Assembly (NCBI RefSeq): GCF_014204525.1
Contig: NZ_JACHLP010000001.1
Location: 682,001 to 746,000, forward strand
Source: Roseateles oligotrophus
GTDB lineage: Bacteria > Pseudomonadota > Gammaproteobacteria > Burkholderiales > Burkholderiaceae_C
Length of the DNA: 64,000 nucleotides
Reading direction: 5' to 3'
Made by a program: the position numbers and the translations under genes
Part shown: positions 18,838-52,583 of the stretch, piece by piece
Layout: each line of letters begins with the position of its first letter
Numbering within the stretch: position 1 is the first letter of the stretch
The notes under the pieces: model-generated
Told to the model about the DNA's origin: nothing
The model's database searches: none
What the model saw: the letters and a program-made list of their open reading frames with translations, nothing else

Positions 18838-19237
18838 CTTCGCTCACCTTTAACCCCGGCTTCCAGGGCATTGGCTGGTTGATAAACCTTCCGCGACACG
18901 GCTCGACCGGTTGGCGGATTGCGACCCGCCTTCGCTGTTGCCAGAAAAGGGGACGGGAAGGACCTGAGTCTAAAAAAAACAGGGGGCACTGTAGCACTTT
19001 TGTCTTAATGGGCCACCCGAAGGCGTCGGGCGGACTGTCGCAGTATCGGAACTACAAGGCATTTCTGAAGCGGCTGCAAGGCGGGCCGGGTCGCTAGCAC
19101 AAGCAGCCTTCCGGGTGAAGTGCTGCATTTGCGCCAGCTCATTCTGCCGCCGAATTGAAGCACCCGGTGCGCACAGGGTAAGCAGCGGGGCTTGACCTAA
19201 ACTGACAGCCTGCAAGCAAAAAAGTCCAGGAATCAAG
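18838..19237. other. 400-base divergent intergenic region
   Basis: Lies between sucA (minus) and the 2OG-Fe oxygenase (plus). It holds the sucA leader described separately. On the plus side there is a TTGACC-like hexamer near 19193, but no matching -10 before the oxygenase. A minus-strand open frame at 18970-19236 has no recognisable content and is not called as a gene. Confidence 0.6.
18841..18968 (-). ncRNA. Candidate structured sucA 5' leader (sucA RNA-like)
   Basis: On the minus-strand transcript, CTCA-ggt-CCTT (18958-18968) is complementary to the sucA ribosome-binding site AAGG-TGAG (18843-18850): eight pairs with a three-base bulge. Between them are local hairpins GGCGG/CCGCC and GGTT/AACC. 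A Burkholderiales sucA RNA motif whose structure involves the Shine-Dalgarno is known from comparative genomics; this leader fits its position and logic, but I cannot run the covariance model. Confidence 0.4.
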
Positions 19238-48537: not shown

Positions 48538-49410
48538 ATGACAAAAACTCCCCACTCCTTCCCCCCTTTATTCATCTCCCACGGTTCCCCCATGACCGCG
48601 CTGGAGCCCCGCGAAGCCGGCCGCTTCGTGCAGCAACTGGGCCAGGCCCTGGACCAGCAATTCGGCCGGCCACGCGCCGTGCTGGCCTTGTCGGCGCACA
48701 GCTTGTCGCGCGCTCCTGTGCTGCTGGCCGGCCCGCGACACCATGCCGTCTACGACTTCGGCGGCTTCGACCCCAAGCTGCAGACCCTGCGCTACGACGC
48801 CGAGGGCGCGCCCGAGCTGGCCCAGCAAATCATGACCCTGGCCGCCCAGGCCGGACTGCCCATGCACCAGCTGACGCAAGGCGGGCTGGACCACGGCATC
48901 TGGACGCCGCTACGCTACATCTACCCCGAGGCCGATGTGCCCGTGCTGCCCCTGGCCTTCAGCCCCCGGCAAAGCCCGGCCGAGCAATACGCTCTGGGCG
49001 AGTTGCTGGCGCCCTTGGCCGATCAAGGCGTGCTCATCTTGGGCAGCGGCAGCCTCACCCACAATCTGGGCCTGGTGTTCGGCCAGGGCCGGCCGCCCGC
49101 CATTGATGCCGCGGAAATCCCTGCCTCCGCGCAATTCCGCGAATGGATGCGCGCCCGTGCCGCCGCCGGCGACTGGCAAAGCCTGCAGGCCTACCGCAGC
49201 CAGGCGCCGCACGCGGCCGAGATGCATCCGACCGACGAGCACCTGCTGCCCTTCTTCATCGCCGCCGGCGCGGGCGGCCGCAGCGAGCCAGCCCTGCGCC
49301 TGCATGCCAGCCTCACCTTTGGCTCCCTGGCCATGGACGCCTACGCCTTCGGCGACTCAGCCCCTCGCCTGGCCGCGGCCCTGCAAGGCGTGGAAGAACG
49401 CACCCTATAA
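48538..49410 (+). CDS. ygiD: LigB-family extradiol dioxygenase (DODA/YgiD type)
   Basis: 290 residues of the 4,5-DOPA dioxygenase family. Candidate metal/active-site histidines are H15 (FISHGSP), H54 (LSAHSLS), H119 (LDHGIWTPL) and H175 (GSGSLTHNL). Usually the second motif reads SAHW; here it is SAHS. In bacteria the physiological substrate is a catechol, often unknown. Its TAA stop lies inside the -10 of the tRNA-Gly gene. Divergent from the permease gene. Confidence 0.87.
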   Translation: MTKTPHSFPPLFISHGSPMTALEPREAGRFVQQLGQALDQQFGRPRAVLALSAHSLSRAPVLLAGPRHHAVYDFGGFDPKLQTLRYDAEGAPELAQQIMTLAAQAGLPMHQLTQGGLDHGIWTPLRYIYPEADVPVLPLAFSPRQSPAEQYALGELLAPLADQGVLILGSGSLTHNLGLVFGQGRPPAIDAAEIPASAQFREWMRARAAAGDWQSLQAYRSQAPHAAEMHPTDEHLLPFFIAAGAGGRSEPALRLHASLTFGSLAMDAYAFGDSAPRLAAALQGVEERTL

Positions 49411-49411
49411 T
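49406..49411 (+). promoter_or_regulatory. -10 of the tRNA-Gly promoter
   Basis: A perfect TATAAT that contains the ygiD stop codon, followed by the GC-rich discriminator CCGCGCC typical of stringently controlled stable-RNA promoters. The -35 is weak. Confidence 0.55.
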
Positions 49412-49421
49412 CCGCGCCACT

Positions 49422-49495
49422 GCGGGTGTCGTTCAATGGTAGGACTCTTGCTTCCCAAGCAAATAACGTGGGTTCGATTCCCATCACCCGCTCCA
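49422..49495 (+). tRNA. tRNA-Gly(CCC)
   Basis: Acceptor stem GCGGGTG/CACCCGC, D-arm with TTCAATGGTAG, anticodon loop TTCCCAA (CCC), T-arm GTGGGTTCGATTCCCAT, discriminator T and encoded CCA. The first pair of the anticodon stem is a C-A mismatch. It decodes GGG. The last 19 bases are repeated downstream. Confidence 0.93.
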
Positions 49496-49534
49496 AACCA
49501 ATGCCTCCGGCCGCAAGGTCGGGGGCATTGGTTT
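49495..49534 (+). terminator. H1 of unit A: terminator-like hairpin directly after the tRNA
   Basis: Eleven-base outer stem AAACCAATGCC/GGCATTGGTTT (49495-49505 with 49524-49534), an inner stem CCGGCC/GGTCGG and a GCAA tetraloop. The equivalent in unit B is 49685-49724. The T-run is short (TTT), so this may act in tRNA 3'-end processing as well as termination. Confidence 0.6.
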
Positions 49535-49573
49535 GAAGTGGGCGTTTGGGCTGAGACCCACCGGGGGTTCGCT

Positions 49574-49598
49574 CAAGACAGTCCAGTGGACTGTCTTG
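49574..49598 (+). other. H2 of unit A: 12-base perfect dyad
   Basis: CAAGACAGTCCA, one central G, TGGACTGTCTTG. Unit B (49763-49787) reads CAAGACATGCCA/TGGCATGTCTTG: two positions changed on each arm and pairing kept. Confidence 0.8.
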
Positions 49599-49640
49599 GA
49601 CGTTGCGCAGCAACGGGCCGAGGGCTTGCCCCGAGGCCGA

Positions 49641-49662
49641 GCAACAGGCCTGAGCCTGTTGC
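49641..49662 (+). other. H4 of unit A: nine-base hairpin
   Basis: GCAACAGGC, loop CTGA, GCCTGTTGC. In unit B (49830-49851) the stem is identical and only the loop differs (CCAA). Confidence 0.75.
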
Positions 49663-49917
49663 GAGCATTCCCATCACCCGCTCCAAACAAAAGCCTCCGG
49701 CCGCAAGGCCGGGGGCTTTTGTTTGGGGTGGGTGTTTGGGGAGAGACCCACCTGGATTCGCTCAAGACATGCCAGTGGCATGTCTTGGACCTTGCGCAGC
49801 AACGGGCCGTGGGCTTGACCCGAGGCCGCGCAACAGGCCCAAGCCTGTTGCGAGCATTCCCATCTTTGCGCCAAAGCAGAGCTTCACCCCAACAACGACT
49901 CTTGAGAGGCCCACCCC

Positions 49918-51456
49918 ATGCTGACCGGCGAACTCCGCAACCAAGTTGACGCCATCTGGAACGCCTTCTGGTCCGGCGGTATTTCCAACCCCATGGAGGT
50001 GCTGGAACAAATCACCTACCTGCTCTTCATCCGCCGGCTGGACGACGCCCACACGCTGGAAGAGTCCAAGGCCCTGGTACTGGGCAAGCCCATGGCCAAG
50101 CGCATCTTCCCGGAAGGCGCCGATGCCAAGGGTCGCCCTTACGACGACCTGCGCTGGTCGCGCTTCAAGCACTTCGCCCCCAGCGAGATGCACACCGTGG
50201 TCGGCGAGCATGTCTTCCCCTTCTTGCGCAGCATGGGCGGCGATGGCTCCACCTACTCGCAGCACATGAAGGACGCGCGCTACACCGTCCCCACGGCCGG
50301 CCTGCTGGCCAAGGTGGTGGACATGCTGGCCGGCCTGCCCATGGACGACCGCGACACCAAGGGCGACCTCTACGAATACATGCTTGGCAAGATCGCCAGT
50401 GCCGGCCAGAACGGCCAGTTCCGCACGCCGCGCCACATCATCCAGCTGATGGTGGCACTGACCCAACCCAACCCAAAAGACAGCATTTGCGACCCGGCCA
50501 GCGGCAGCTGCGGCTTCCTGGTGGCGGCAGGGGAATACCTGCGCGAGCAGCACCCCAAGCTGTTCAACGACGCAGTAGCCCGTGAACATTTCCACCACGG
50601 CATGTTCAACGGCTACGACTTCGACAACACCATGCTGCGCATAGGCTCCATGAATATGGCCCTGCACGGCGTCGATAACCCGGACATCCGCTACAAGGAC
50701 TCGCTGGCGCAAGACCACGCGGGCGACGAAGAGAAGTACAGCCTCATCCTCGCCAACCCGCCCTTTGCCGGCAGCCTCGACTACGAGAACACCGCCAAAG
50801 ACCTGCAAGCCATCGTCAAGACCAAGAAAACCGAGCTACTCTTCCTGGCCCTGTTCCTGCGCCTGCTCAAGCCCGGTGGCCGCGCCGCCGTCATCGTGCC
50901 GGATGGTGTGCTGTTTGGCTCCAGCAAGGCCCACAAGGCGCTGCGGCAGATGCTGGTGGAAGAGCAGAAGTTGGACGGCGTAATTTCGCTCCCGGCCGGT
51001 GCCTTCAAGCCCTATGCCGGCGTCTCCACCGCCATCCTGCTGTTCACCAAGACCAACTCGGGCGGCACCGATACCGTGTGGTTCTACGACATGCAGGCCG
51101 ATGGCTGGAGCCTGGACGACAAGCGCCAGCCGCTGCTGGATGAGGGCAGGCTTGGCGTTAGCCCGGCGCAGGCATTGAGCGAGGCCGAACACGCCAAAAA
51201 TAACCTACCAGATGCACTGACCCGCTGGACTCAGCGCGGTGGCAGCGAGCGTGAGCGCCCGCGCACCGCGCAGAGCTTCTGCGTCCCCAAGACCGACATT
51301 GCGGCGCAGGGCTACGACCTCAGCATCAATCGCTACAAGGAGGTGGTGCATGAGGTGGTTCAGCATGAGCTTCCGCTGGAGATTCTTGCCGGGCTGAAGC
51401 AGCTGGAAGCTGATATTCAGGCGGGCATGGCGGAGCTTGAGGGGATGTTGAAGTGA
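49918..51456 (+). CDS. hsdM: Type I restriction-modification methyltransferase subunit HsdM
   Basis: N6-adenine methyltransferase of a type I system, 512 residues. An N-terminal HsdM_N helical domain (LRNQVDAIWNAFW), a SAM-binding motif (CDPASGSCGFL, 191-201) and the catalytic NPPF (280-283) are present. The C-terminal helices end in a coiled-coil that contacts HsdS. It forms HsdM2S with hsdS, whose GTG start overlaps its stop. First gene of the defence island, 54 bases after the tRNA repeats. Confidence 0.96.
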   Translation: MLTGELRNQVDAIWNAFWSGGISNPMEVLEQITYLLFIRRLDDAHTLEESKALVLGKPMAKRIFPEGADAKGRPYDDLRWSRFKHFAPSEMHTVVGEHVFPFLRSMGGDGSTYSQHMKDARYTVPTAGLLAKVVDMLAGLPMDDRDTKGDLYEYMLGKIASAGQNGQFRTPRHIIQLMVALTQPNPKDSICDPASGSCGFLVAAGEYLREQHPKLFNDAVAREHFHHGMFNGYDFDNTMLRIGSMNMALHGVDNPDIRYKDSLAQDHAGDEEKYSLILANPPFAGSLDYENTAKDLQAIVKTKKTELLFLALFLRLLKPGGRAAVIVPDGVLFGSSKAHKALRQMLVEEQKLDGVISLPAGAFKPYAGVSTAILLFTKTNSGGTDTVWFYDMQADGWSLDDKRQPLLDEGRLGVSPAQALSEAEHAKNNLPDALTRWTQRGGSERERPRTAQSFCVPKTDIAAQGYDLSINRYKEVVHEVVQHELPLEILAGLKQLEADIQAGMAELEGMLK

Positions 51457-52583
51457 GTCGCGCCCTACAACTGTCTGATGTTTGTGAAATCACCATGGGG
51501 CAGGCTCCCGACGGTGAAAGCTACAACGACCAAGGGGATGGCCTTCCACTCATTGCAGGTGCGGGGGATTTCGGAGACCTGCACCCGAAAGTCAAAAAAT
51601 TCACTACGGAAGCGTCAAAGGTCTGCGAAAGCGGGGATATTGTTCTCGGAATCCGAGCCACTATTGGCGAAAAGGTCATTGCCGATGGTCGCTACTGCTT
51701 GGGGCGTGGCGTTGCTGGCCTGCGCGCAGGTCCTGACCTGAATGCACGATACCTGTGGCACTGGCTAGCCCACGTCAACCCTCTGCTGGTTTCAAAAGCA
51801 CGAGGTGCCACGTTCCTACAAGTAAATCGCGGGGATATTGGTGAGCTACCGATTTCCCTCCCACCCCTCCCCGAACAATGCCGCATCGCCGCCATCCTCG
51901 ACAAAGCCGACGCCCTGCGCAACAAGCGCCGCGAAGCCTTGGCCCAACTCGACCGCCTCGCACAGTCGATTTTTGTGGAGATGTTTGGGGATCCGGTAAC
52001 GAATCCAAAAGGGTGGACAGTCGTTAAATTTGGCGAAGTTGGGAATCTAGACCGAGGGGTTTCAAAGCACAGGCCGAGAAACGACCCAGCACTTCTCGGC
52101 GGGAAACATCCACTCATACAAACGGGGGACGTGGCCAATTCCGGTGGCTATATCCGCACTTACGCGAGCACCTATTCCGATATTGGCCTTCGACAAAGCA
52201 AGCTCTGGTCTCGCGGAACACTCTGCATCACCATCGCTGCAAACATTGCCAAGACTGGCATCTTGACGTTCGATGCCTGCTTCCCAGACAGCGTTGTCGG
52301 TTTTACTGCGAACGACGAGGCGACCGTTGAGTACGTGCGGGTCTGGCTCTCTTTCTTGCAGAAGACGCTTGAAGAAAATGCTCCTGAGTCCGCGCAAAAA
52401 AATATCAACTTGGCCATCTTGCGTGGTCTTGACATTCCTCTCCCGCCTATCGAGTTGCGTGAGAAATTTGGCCAAGCACTTCGGTCACAAATGAAACTGG
52501 CTGGTTCGAGTGAAAAGTCTGCGAAGGAGTTGGATGAAATGTTCGCATCCCTCCAACACCGCGCCTTCCGGGGAGAACTCTGA
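51453..52583 (+). CDS. hsdS: Type I restriction-modification specificity subunit HsdS
   Basis: 376 residues with two target-recognition domains (about 1-138 and 187-325), each followed by a conserved helical spacer: LPPLPEQCRIAAILDKADAL and LPPIELREKFGQAL. Together they define a bipartite DNA target that cannot be predicted here. The start is GTG, overlapping the hsdM TGA (GTGA). Base composition is visibly less GC-rich than the flanks, typical of horizontally exchanged specificity genes. Confidence 0.93.
   Translation: MSRALQLSDVCEITMGQAPDGESYNDQGDGLPLIAGAGDFGDLHPKVKKFTTEASKVCESGDIVLGIRATIGEKVIADGRYCLGRGVAGLRAGPDLNARYLWHWLAHVNPLLVSKARGATFLQVNRGDIGELPISLPPLPEQCRIAAILDKADALRNKRREALAQLDRLAQSIFVEMFGDPVTNPKGWTVVKFGEVGNLDRGVSKHRPRNDPALLGGKHPLIQTGDVANSGGYIRTYASTYSDIGLRQSKLWSRGTLCITIAANIAKTGILTFDACFPDSVVGFTANDEATVEYVRVWLSFLQKTLEENAPESAQKNINLAILRGLDIPLPPIELREKFGQALRSQMKLAGSSEKSAKELDEMFASLQHRAFRGEL

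Follow-up and report, generated by a model that had tools for sequence, protein, structure and literature searches.

A multihairpin insert at the T-loop position in tandem units behind tRNA-Gly(CCC) of Roseateles oligotrophus, with like inserts in tRNA arrays and palindromic repeats

Repeats that begin within a tRNA gene are known from the tyrT locus of Escherichia coli, where they are termed rtT (RF00391) and are annotated, in strain K-12, as the sRNA RttR. The tail at tyrT-tyrV of K-12 is AATCCTTCCCCCACCACCA (19 bases); three matches to the Rfam RtT model lie 178 bases apart behind tyrV, and a fourth lies between tyrT and tyrV. Each unit there reads as tail AATCCTTCCCCCACCACCA, spacer, inverted T-arm GGGGAAGGATGAGAAGCTTCGA, and then AAGGTTCG, 68 bases, and AATCC. 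Passages in two papers describe rtT as released from the tyrT transcript (PMC4986893) and RtT as up-regulated in the cold in Thioalkalivibrio (PMC8092127), and in a passage of a third, BIME-type attenuators upstream of gatY, rbfA, and cvpA in E. coli are said to resemble rtT (PMC2965389). Comparison of an E. coli unit with phages gave one matching record, a Salmonella record annotated as RtT RNA.

Genes for tRNAs are also the targets of integrative elements, which use 3' parts of the tRNA and duplicate its 3' end; tRNA tails are classic att sites. Short, noncoding hairpin DNA is represented in bacteria by REP and BIME sequences, which are thought to move in trans with RAYT proteins (Y1 HUH), and in eukaryotic organelles by the mitochondrial repetitive hairpin-forming elements, which are small mobile hairpin elements. 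Among REPs, those with a CGTC tag include CGTC-1, which is dRS3 of Neisseria; according to one paper, no dedicated transposase for them was known in 2013 (Di Nocera et al. 2013, PMC3733652).

In this study, we analyzed a stretch of 64,000 nucleotides from R. oligotrophus (contig NZ_JACHLP010000001.1, positions 682,001 to 746,000), referred to here as the window. An earlier sequence-only reading of the window had described, immediately behind tRNA-Gly(CCC), two units of about 190 bases that each open with the last 19 bases of the tRNA gene, together with the start of a third, and had compared them with rtT. The tRNA-Gly(CCC) gene is the sole tRNA found by ARAGORN within the 64-kb window. Both units open with ATTCCCATCACCCGCTCCA, the final 19 bases of that gene, and their lengths and spacing are 190 and 189 bases, as described; as direct copies they are 88% identical over 89 nt and 90% identical over 111 nt. 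The third start is present, but it is only a 9-base stub. The features of the locus, in window coordinates, are as follows.

49422 to 49495, plus strand: intact tRNA-Gly(CCC) gene (ARAGORN; Rfam tRNA, 60.6 bits)
49477 to 49666, plus strand: unit 1, 190 bases (direct repeat D1/D2)
49477 to 49495, plus strand: tail R, the last 19 bases of the tRNA gene, from T-loop A58 to CCA (sequence, ARAGORN, repeat search)
49496 to 49534, plus strand: terminator-like hairpin t of unit 1, with a weak T run (fold and sequence; not called by the terminator scan)
49536 to 49562, plus strand: altered copy, in inverted orientation, of the T-arm/acceptor strand of the tRNA, in unit 1 (73% complementary as inverted repeat I1)
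49566 to 49571, plus strand: GGTTCG, 5' half of the second T-loop and left border of X1 (sequence; the R1 match starts at 49566)
49572 to 49666, plus strand: insert X1, 95 bases, four hairpins (folds, border reading)
49574 to 49598, plus strand: hairpin A of X1, H2 of the sequence-only reading (inverted repeat I6)
49602 to 49614, plus strand: hairpin B of X1, with a GNA triloop, GCA (folds)
49616 to 49638, plus strand: hairpin C of X1 (fold)
49641 to 49662, plus strand: hairpin D of X1, the earlier H4 (fold)
49667 to 49855, plus strand: unit 2, 189 bases (direct repeat D1/D2)
49667 to 49685, plus strand: tail R repeated, forming the right border of X1 (sequence, repeat search)
49686 to 49724, plus strand: hairpin t of unit 2, terminator-like, with a T-rich stretch behind it (sequence; inverted repeat I2)
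49725 to 49751, plus strand: T-arm of unit 2, inverted and altered (up to 49739 by inverted repeat I2, the remainder by eye)
49755 to 49760, plus strand: GATTCG, left border of X2 (R1 match 49755 to 49810)
49761 to 49855, plus strand: insert X2, 95 bases (R1, R2, border reading)
49856 to 49864, plus strand: third-tail stub, 9 bases, ATTCCCATC, right border of X2 (sequence)

Each unit runs from a tail beginning at A58 through a hairpin and an inverted T-arm to GGTTCG, the insert, and the next tail (GGTTCG^[X]^tail, where ^ marks a border). Since the later tails are preceded by the other half of a T-loop (GGTTCG in unit 1, GATTCG in unit 2), what follows each inverted T-arm can be read as a spare T-loop of the form TTCG [95 bases] A. 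The 95-base insert, here called X, folds into hairpins A to D, with the link GGAC joining A and B; both window inserts lie between TTCG and A and have the order A, GGAC/GAAC, B, C, D that characterizes X elsewhere. The folding energy of 49477 to 49864 was -248 kcal/mol versus a shuffled mean of -165 (z of -13.6; 0 of 100 shuffles as good). The paired changes between units that had been described for H1 (the terminator-like hairpin) and H2, and the restriction of H4 variation to the loop, were all found: H1 has two paired changes, H2 differs at two adjacent pairs, and H4 differs in the loop only. H1 also carries a one-sided change (GGTC versus GGCC) that the description had missed. A promoter scan of 49200 to 50100 found nothing, and a terminator scan of the same interval gave two terminator-like sites (0.9 expected), both on the minus strand; the likeness of the plus-strand hairpins to terminators is therefore one judged by eye only.

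In layout, the likeness to rtT that the sequence-only reading had proposed is borne out, as are the 178-base spacing and 19-base tail that it had given for E. coli, both of which were verified at K-12 tyrT/tyrV. In both cases, the units stand in tandem directly behind a tRNA gene and begin with its last 19 bases, an inverted, altered T-arm (GGATGAGAA..) follows, and GGTTCG^X^AATCC carries hairpin B, then CCCGAAGGG, then hairpin D. Unlike the window units, rtT adjoins tRNA-Tyr and has a 178-base period, and E. coli hairpin A is short; the comparison covers the unit outside the region from the tail to the inverted T-arm. The primary sequence of the window units falls below Rfam detection: the Rfam RtT model scores the E. 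coli units at 132.9 to 137.5 bits, and the window is unmatched. At gathering thresholds, Rfam found the tRNA (and sucA elsewhere) but no RF00391 in the window, and at E <= 10 over 49400 to 49920, it gave no RtT, only the tRNA and 22 matches below gathering, many of them microRNA-type hairpins. A covariance model built from seven short inserts with their T-loop flank, and free of E. coli and window sequences (R2), found four of four E. coli units and nothing else in a 2-kb stretch (28.9, 21.5, 20.7, and 17.5 bits); however, chance matches to R2 in the 64-kb window reached 27.1 and 24.9 bits. Because these ranges overlap, the case for kinship with rtT is made by the position, the border, and the order of parts in combination, not by score alone. 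The likeness to rtT ascribed to the attenuators was followed up on three K-12 stretches (gatY; cvpA; and pnp-rpsO-truB, without rbfA); R2 found nothing in them, and the Rfam call at gatY-fbaB was naRNA4.

Within the genus, the unit is patchy. The LigB-domain gene that stands upstream of tRNA-Gly(CCC) in the window was seen, followed by this tRNA, in 13 of 17 same-genus genomes, the remaining four falling outside the synteny check, and a unit lay within 400 bases of the syntenic tRNA in 1 of these 13 relatives (G004), which has one full unit and the start of a second; another of the 13 (G017) offers only about 200 bases behind the tRNA. It is the entire unit, rather than X alone, that the relatives lack at this place. 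Absence of the hairpins from relatives, which the sequence-only reading had named as a refutation, thus holds within the genus: 12 of the 13 lack the unit, so it is not a conserved gene there. In the R. oligotrophus genome itself, which has 59 tRNA matches, 39 tRNA contexts were checked, and a tail repeat unexplained by a following complete tRNA was seen at this tRNA only (1 of 39). R1, a covariance model that was built from 15 sequences and covers hairpins A and B together with the GGTTCGCTC flank, matched this genome above 25 bits at the two units only. Two weaker matches (24.3 and 22.8 bits) were considered as X and rejected, being copies of a different palindrome. That palindrome, AGTCCACAGGACT.....TGTCCGGG, has two copies in the genome (G000:C2:582611-582643, L061/L310; G000:C12:25487-25536, L060/L311) and resembles hairpin A of X. 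A DNA search of the genome for dispersed copies returned just the two units and two reverse matches from the palindromes of unit 1, and blastn of both units against plasmids and phages gave no match.

Beyond the genus, the search of related genomes that had been suggested for the unit did find it behind tRNA genes. With the part outside the tRNA as a DNA query, 18 of 399 family genomes, the source genome included, matched at E <= 0.001, although three of the weakest matches (L050, L051, and L052) look like chance in coding sequence. At E <= 0.01, R1 matched 39 places in 28 of the 399 genomes and in 19 of 141 genera, its own genus included. The upstream tRNAs that ARAGORN identified at family loci were Gly(CCC), Phe(GAA), Ser(GGA), and Ser(GCT); several family loci had no ARAGORN tRNA, and some of these retain a tRNA tail by eye. 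In the class, R2 matched 14 of 369 genomes at E <= 0.01, again with the source genome included; its rows L246, L248, and L249 look spurious. By eye, the rtT layout recurs in the class behind tRNA-Ser, tRNA-Arg, and tRNA-Pro genes, in two cases with a 178-base period (G469 and G604). Across the family, the class, and E. coli, the tRNA genes followed by like inserts are those for Gly(CCC), Phe, Ser(GGA), Ser(GCT), Arg, Pro, and Tyr. Unit periods can be set side by side: 178 bases occurs in three lineages, with tRNA-Tyr (E. coli, L235), tRNA-Ser, and tRNA-Arg (G469, L241/L253; G604, L242/L254), while the period is 189 to 190 in the window and 183 in G061 (L090). The last locus has two units but no ARAGORN tRNA in a 3.7-kb stretch and is an orphaned trailer array.

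We hand-collected 53 elements with typed anchors, counting identical copies once: 34 in trailers, 4 in E. coli, 5 in tRNAs, 1 in a tRNA 3' half, and 9 in CGTC-type palindromes. One N-containing element was left out of the helix counts, and the second unit of L090 was missed by its anchor. X, a cluster of usually four hairpins, is 56 to 108 bases long in these 53; in T-loops it lies at TTCG^A. Departures from the hairpin order are L037, which lacks C; L042 and L049, which have another C/D part; and array forms with a weak D. Because R1 and R2 include T-loop flank, their matches lean toward the T-loop setting. A flank-free pattern (GCTC, gap, GGAC, hairpin B) was run on public genome contigs and viral contigs and gave at least 139 matches in at least 131 stretches (at least 120 from genome contigs and 11 viral). 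Among the 139 matches listed, 6 passed the hairpin test and 133 failed; all six passing elements lie in a T-loop, and none comes from the 11 viral stretches. Five of the six were already known (G004, G061, G116, G290, and G307), and the new one interrupts a Cys tRNA of Silanimonas. Among the titles and abstracts listed for rtT/tyrT, T-loop insertions, tRNA arrays, and tRNA palindromes, none described a T-loop insert of this kind; most subscription journals lay outside that search.

Some of the lower R1 matches place the insert inside tRNA genes of dense arrays. Exact removal of CTC...GAGC restores an ARAGORN tRNA for Gln (G307), Tyr (G232), Phe (G106), Ala (G428), and Cys (Silanimonas, L140). 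In the excision test, which was scripted with ARAGORN run across the join, 7 of 31 rows were exact cuts, representing 5 distinct inserts, and 24 were other cuts; ARAGORN is thus permissive, and recovery of a tRNA alone proves little. Firmer evidence comes from empty sites: in the G232 array, the tRNA genes for Phe and Cys are uninterrupted at the very point that X occupies in other copies. At other places, G232, G106, and G428 carry intact isoacceptor genes for Tyr, Phe, and Ala(TGC), and their interrupted copies are therefore dispensable. By model match, with context judged by eye, the insert core also lies reversed in the T-loop region of array tRNA-Asn genes (L095, 3499 to 3550, minus strand; L140, 1911 to 1962, minus strand).

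A further setting has no adjoining tRNA. In R2 rows from G741, G679, and G586, an X-like core, GAAC-B-GGCCCGAAGGGCGAGCG.AGCGAGT, splits a palindrome that has the form CGTCATTCC...GGA^ATCCAG; the case of G586 is less clear. A 30-base core pattern, allowed up to 3 mismatches, hits G741 at ten places and the control at 0; of the ten, one (L272) is in coding sequence and looks fortuitous. An inverted partner palindrome free of the insert was located by script for 3 of the 10, and by eye four others (L266, L268, L269, and L271) seem to have such a partner. The palindromes of G741 and G679 fit the description of CGTC REPs in PMC3733652; this is our reading of that description and not a statement of that paper. 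CGTC REPs are, like the hairpins of X, small palindromes, and on this reading they provide a second insertion setting of X in G741 and G679; however, X is a multihairpin body inside such a palindrome and not itself a CGTC REP. By eye, no CGTC or GTAG tag on a single 20- to 40-bp palindrome was seen at the borders of X1 or X2. X also differs from REP and BIME sequences in having a fixed T-loop site and no GTAG tag that could be seen, and we know of no defined T-loop site for the mitochondrial hairpin elements.

The sequence-only reading had taken compensatory changes as an indication that structure rather than sequence is kept, and the paired changes extend across 15 aligned inserts. Helices A and B are paired in 97.7% of 260 cells; 12 of their 18 base pairs have changed on both sides, and one-sided changes occur in 0 of 260 cells. 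The covariation score was reached by 0 of 500 shuffles, and the number of pair types by 86 of 500. The pairs are also unusual in kind. When X elements and tRNAs alike were folded as RNA at minimum energy, G.U made up 12 of 807 inner-helix pairs in X versus 40 of 554 in 59 tRNAs and 13 of 250 in 22 stretches that immediately follow tRNAs, and 97 of 136 X hairpins had 3-base loops (55 of them GNA) versus 22 of 136 in tRNAs (GNA, 3 of 136), comparisons for which the nominal p value overstates the case because the elements are related. Outermost helix pairs were G.U in 28 of 136 cases in X versus 13 of 136 in tRNAs, and the CGTC subset showed no G.U depletion (3 of 44). A stricter formulation, that X stems are wholly free of G.U, proved too strong: 40 of 968 pairs are G.U, 28 of those outermost. 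Stable GNA triloops occur in single-stranded DNA, and template switching between the arms of a palindrome can give wobble-free covariation without selection. Covariation alone is therefore no proof of function, which weakens the argument drawn from it by the sequence-only reading. To judge from the sequences, Watson-Crick swaps with few G.U pairs fit DNA palindromes, including arm correction by template switching, better than selection on RNA.

These observations bear on what the units are. A functional trailer RNA, as for rtT, would be cotranscribed with tRNA-Gly, freed by 3' processing, and regulatory, in the stringent response or attenuation. The layout shared with E. coli rtT and its annotation as the sRNA RttR, its release from the tyrT transcript and the cold up-regulation in Thioalkalivibrio as described in the passages noted above (PMC4986893; PMC8092127), the strong fold of 49477 to 49864, and the covariation in helices A and B all speak for such an RNA. 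We nevertheless consider it unlikely, given that X is found without an adjoining tRNA and within other tRNA genes, that the unit is patchy among relatives, that inner-helix G.U is low, and that Rfam RtT is unmatched at the locus even at E <= 10. With a terminator-like hairpin before X in each unit, transcription of X would presumably need read-through, although the plus-strand scan did not call that hairpin. The earlier view of the units as primarily an RNA class is thus not supported, given the presence of X inside other tRNA genes and in tRNA-free CGTC-type palindromes and its few G.U pairs. That the locus belongs to an "independent or wider class" stands in its second half, with matches in other genera and families; the first half is not supported, because insert, site, and layout are common with E. 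coli and other loci, though the score against E. coli overlaps chance. Taken together, the data suggest that the locus is one setting of an insert also present in rtT, tRNA arrays, and CGTC-type palindromes, rather than an independent trailer RNA.

The tail copies could also be attL and attR of a prophage or ICE integrated by a tyrosine recombinase, tRNA tails being typical att sites. A phage integrase gene lies behind tRNA-Gly(CCC) in a genome of the same family (G021, L020), so this tRNA is also an integration site; a DUF6538 protein is encoded behind it in G008 (L009), and a type I restriction-modification operon follows the window units. The units share with tRNA-targeted integrative elements the use of tRNA 3' parts and the duplicated tRNA 3' end, but they carry no integrase, and at 379 bases the two together are too small for an integrase gene; the borders of X (TTCG^CTC...GAGC^A) have no repeated crossover core, and X recurs with a like hairpin order elsewhere, CGTC palindromes included. 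We regard an integration remnant as improbable. It is harder still to see X as a tiny T-loop intron (position 57/58), self- or protein-spliced, even though its position is exact, the exons are otherwise intact, and excision restores five tRNA species: the interrupted Tyr, Phe, and Ala array tRNAs have intact isoacceptors elsewhere, which makes splicing unnecessary in G232, G106, and G428; at trailer loci with an ARAGORN tRNA, the tRNA is whole and X stands behind it; X is also found in CGTC palindromes; and no catalytic core was recognized in it. A plain tandem duplication of the region 3' to the tRNA, local to this lineage, with hairpins arising by chance or as terminator debris, would suit the 88 to 90% identity of the two units and the single other examined genus genome with a unit at this tRNA, yet it can scarcely be credited in view of like-bordered matches in 19 of 141 sampled family genera and in other families of the class.

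We favor, as the probable explanation, that the units are copies of a miniature nonautonomous DNA element that inserts beside GA/ATCC in palindromes. The body of X (A, link GGAC/GAAC, B, C, and D) would insert at TTCG^A of a T-arm, next to GA/ATCC, and also at GGA^ATCCA, the similar-looking end of CGTC-type palindromic repeats, apparently with no target-site duplication, a single A being ambiguous. A duplicated tRNA 3' tail would let a chromosomal tRNA tolerate X, with the intact tRNA upstream and X in the spare T-arm, and unequal exchange could then multiply units in tandem, giving the rtT layout. The tail duplication may thus be a condition for survival, rescuing an essential tRNA. We infer that X moves as DNA, probably as a single-stranded hairpin, with an enzyme supplied in trans, for which an HUH/Y1 transposase of the RAYT/IS200 kind is a guess; any trailer RNA would be a by-product or a later use. 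The proposal does not account for the order of events behind the inverted T-arm. No mobilizing gene for X was found: Y1_Tnp occurs in 9 of 12 X-bearing genomes and is absent from 3, so a Y1 transposase is only a candidate, and in R. oligotrophus its Y1_Tnp lies on contig C6, with the window on C1. No fresh insertion of X was seen among the elements compared.

More tentatively, X may represent an unnamed class of miniature mobile DNA, with GNA-rich perfect hairpins that move single-stranded and enter tRNA T-arms (TTCG^A) across beta- and gammaproteobacteria; rtT would be a fossil of it, and tail duplication would be the host's or the element's means of keeping the tRNA working. If the DNA-element reading is right, it would explain the odd structure of the E. 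coli tyrT repeats, which begin at tRNA base 58, and a one-locus curiosity would become a family that has many tRNAs as targets. Hairpins that covary behind a tRNA gene would not need to be RNA genes, and CGTC-type repeats would gain an insertion partner with a defined site, so that the enzyme behind both would become searchable.

Other features of the window lie beside or apart from the units. Directly behind them, at 49918 to 52583, is an HsdM and HsdS gene pair (type I restriction-modification); an hsdM match was absent at 22 of 22 tRNA-Gly loci compared, up to about 1.5 kb behind each tRNA. A 329-amino-acid open frame at 48935 to 49924 on the plus strand takes in the last part of the dioxygenase gene along with the tRNA and the two units; it has no Pfam match and is probably spurious. 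At 18841 to 18924, on the minus strand, Rfam identifies a sucA RNA motif (87.8 bits).
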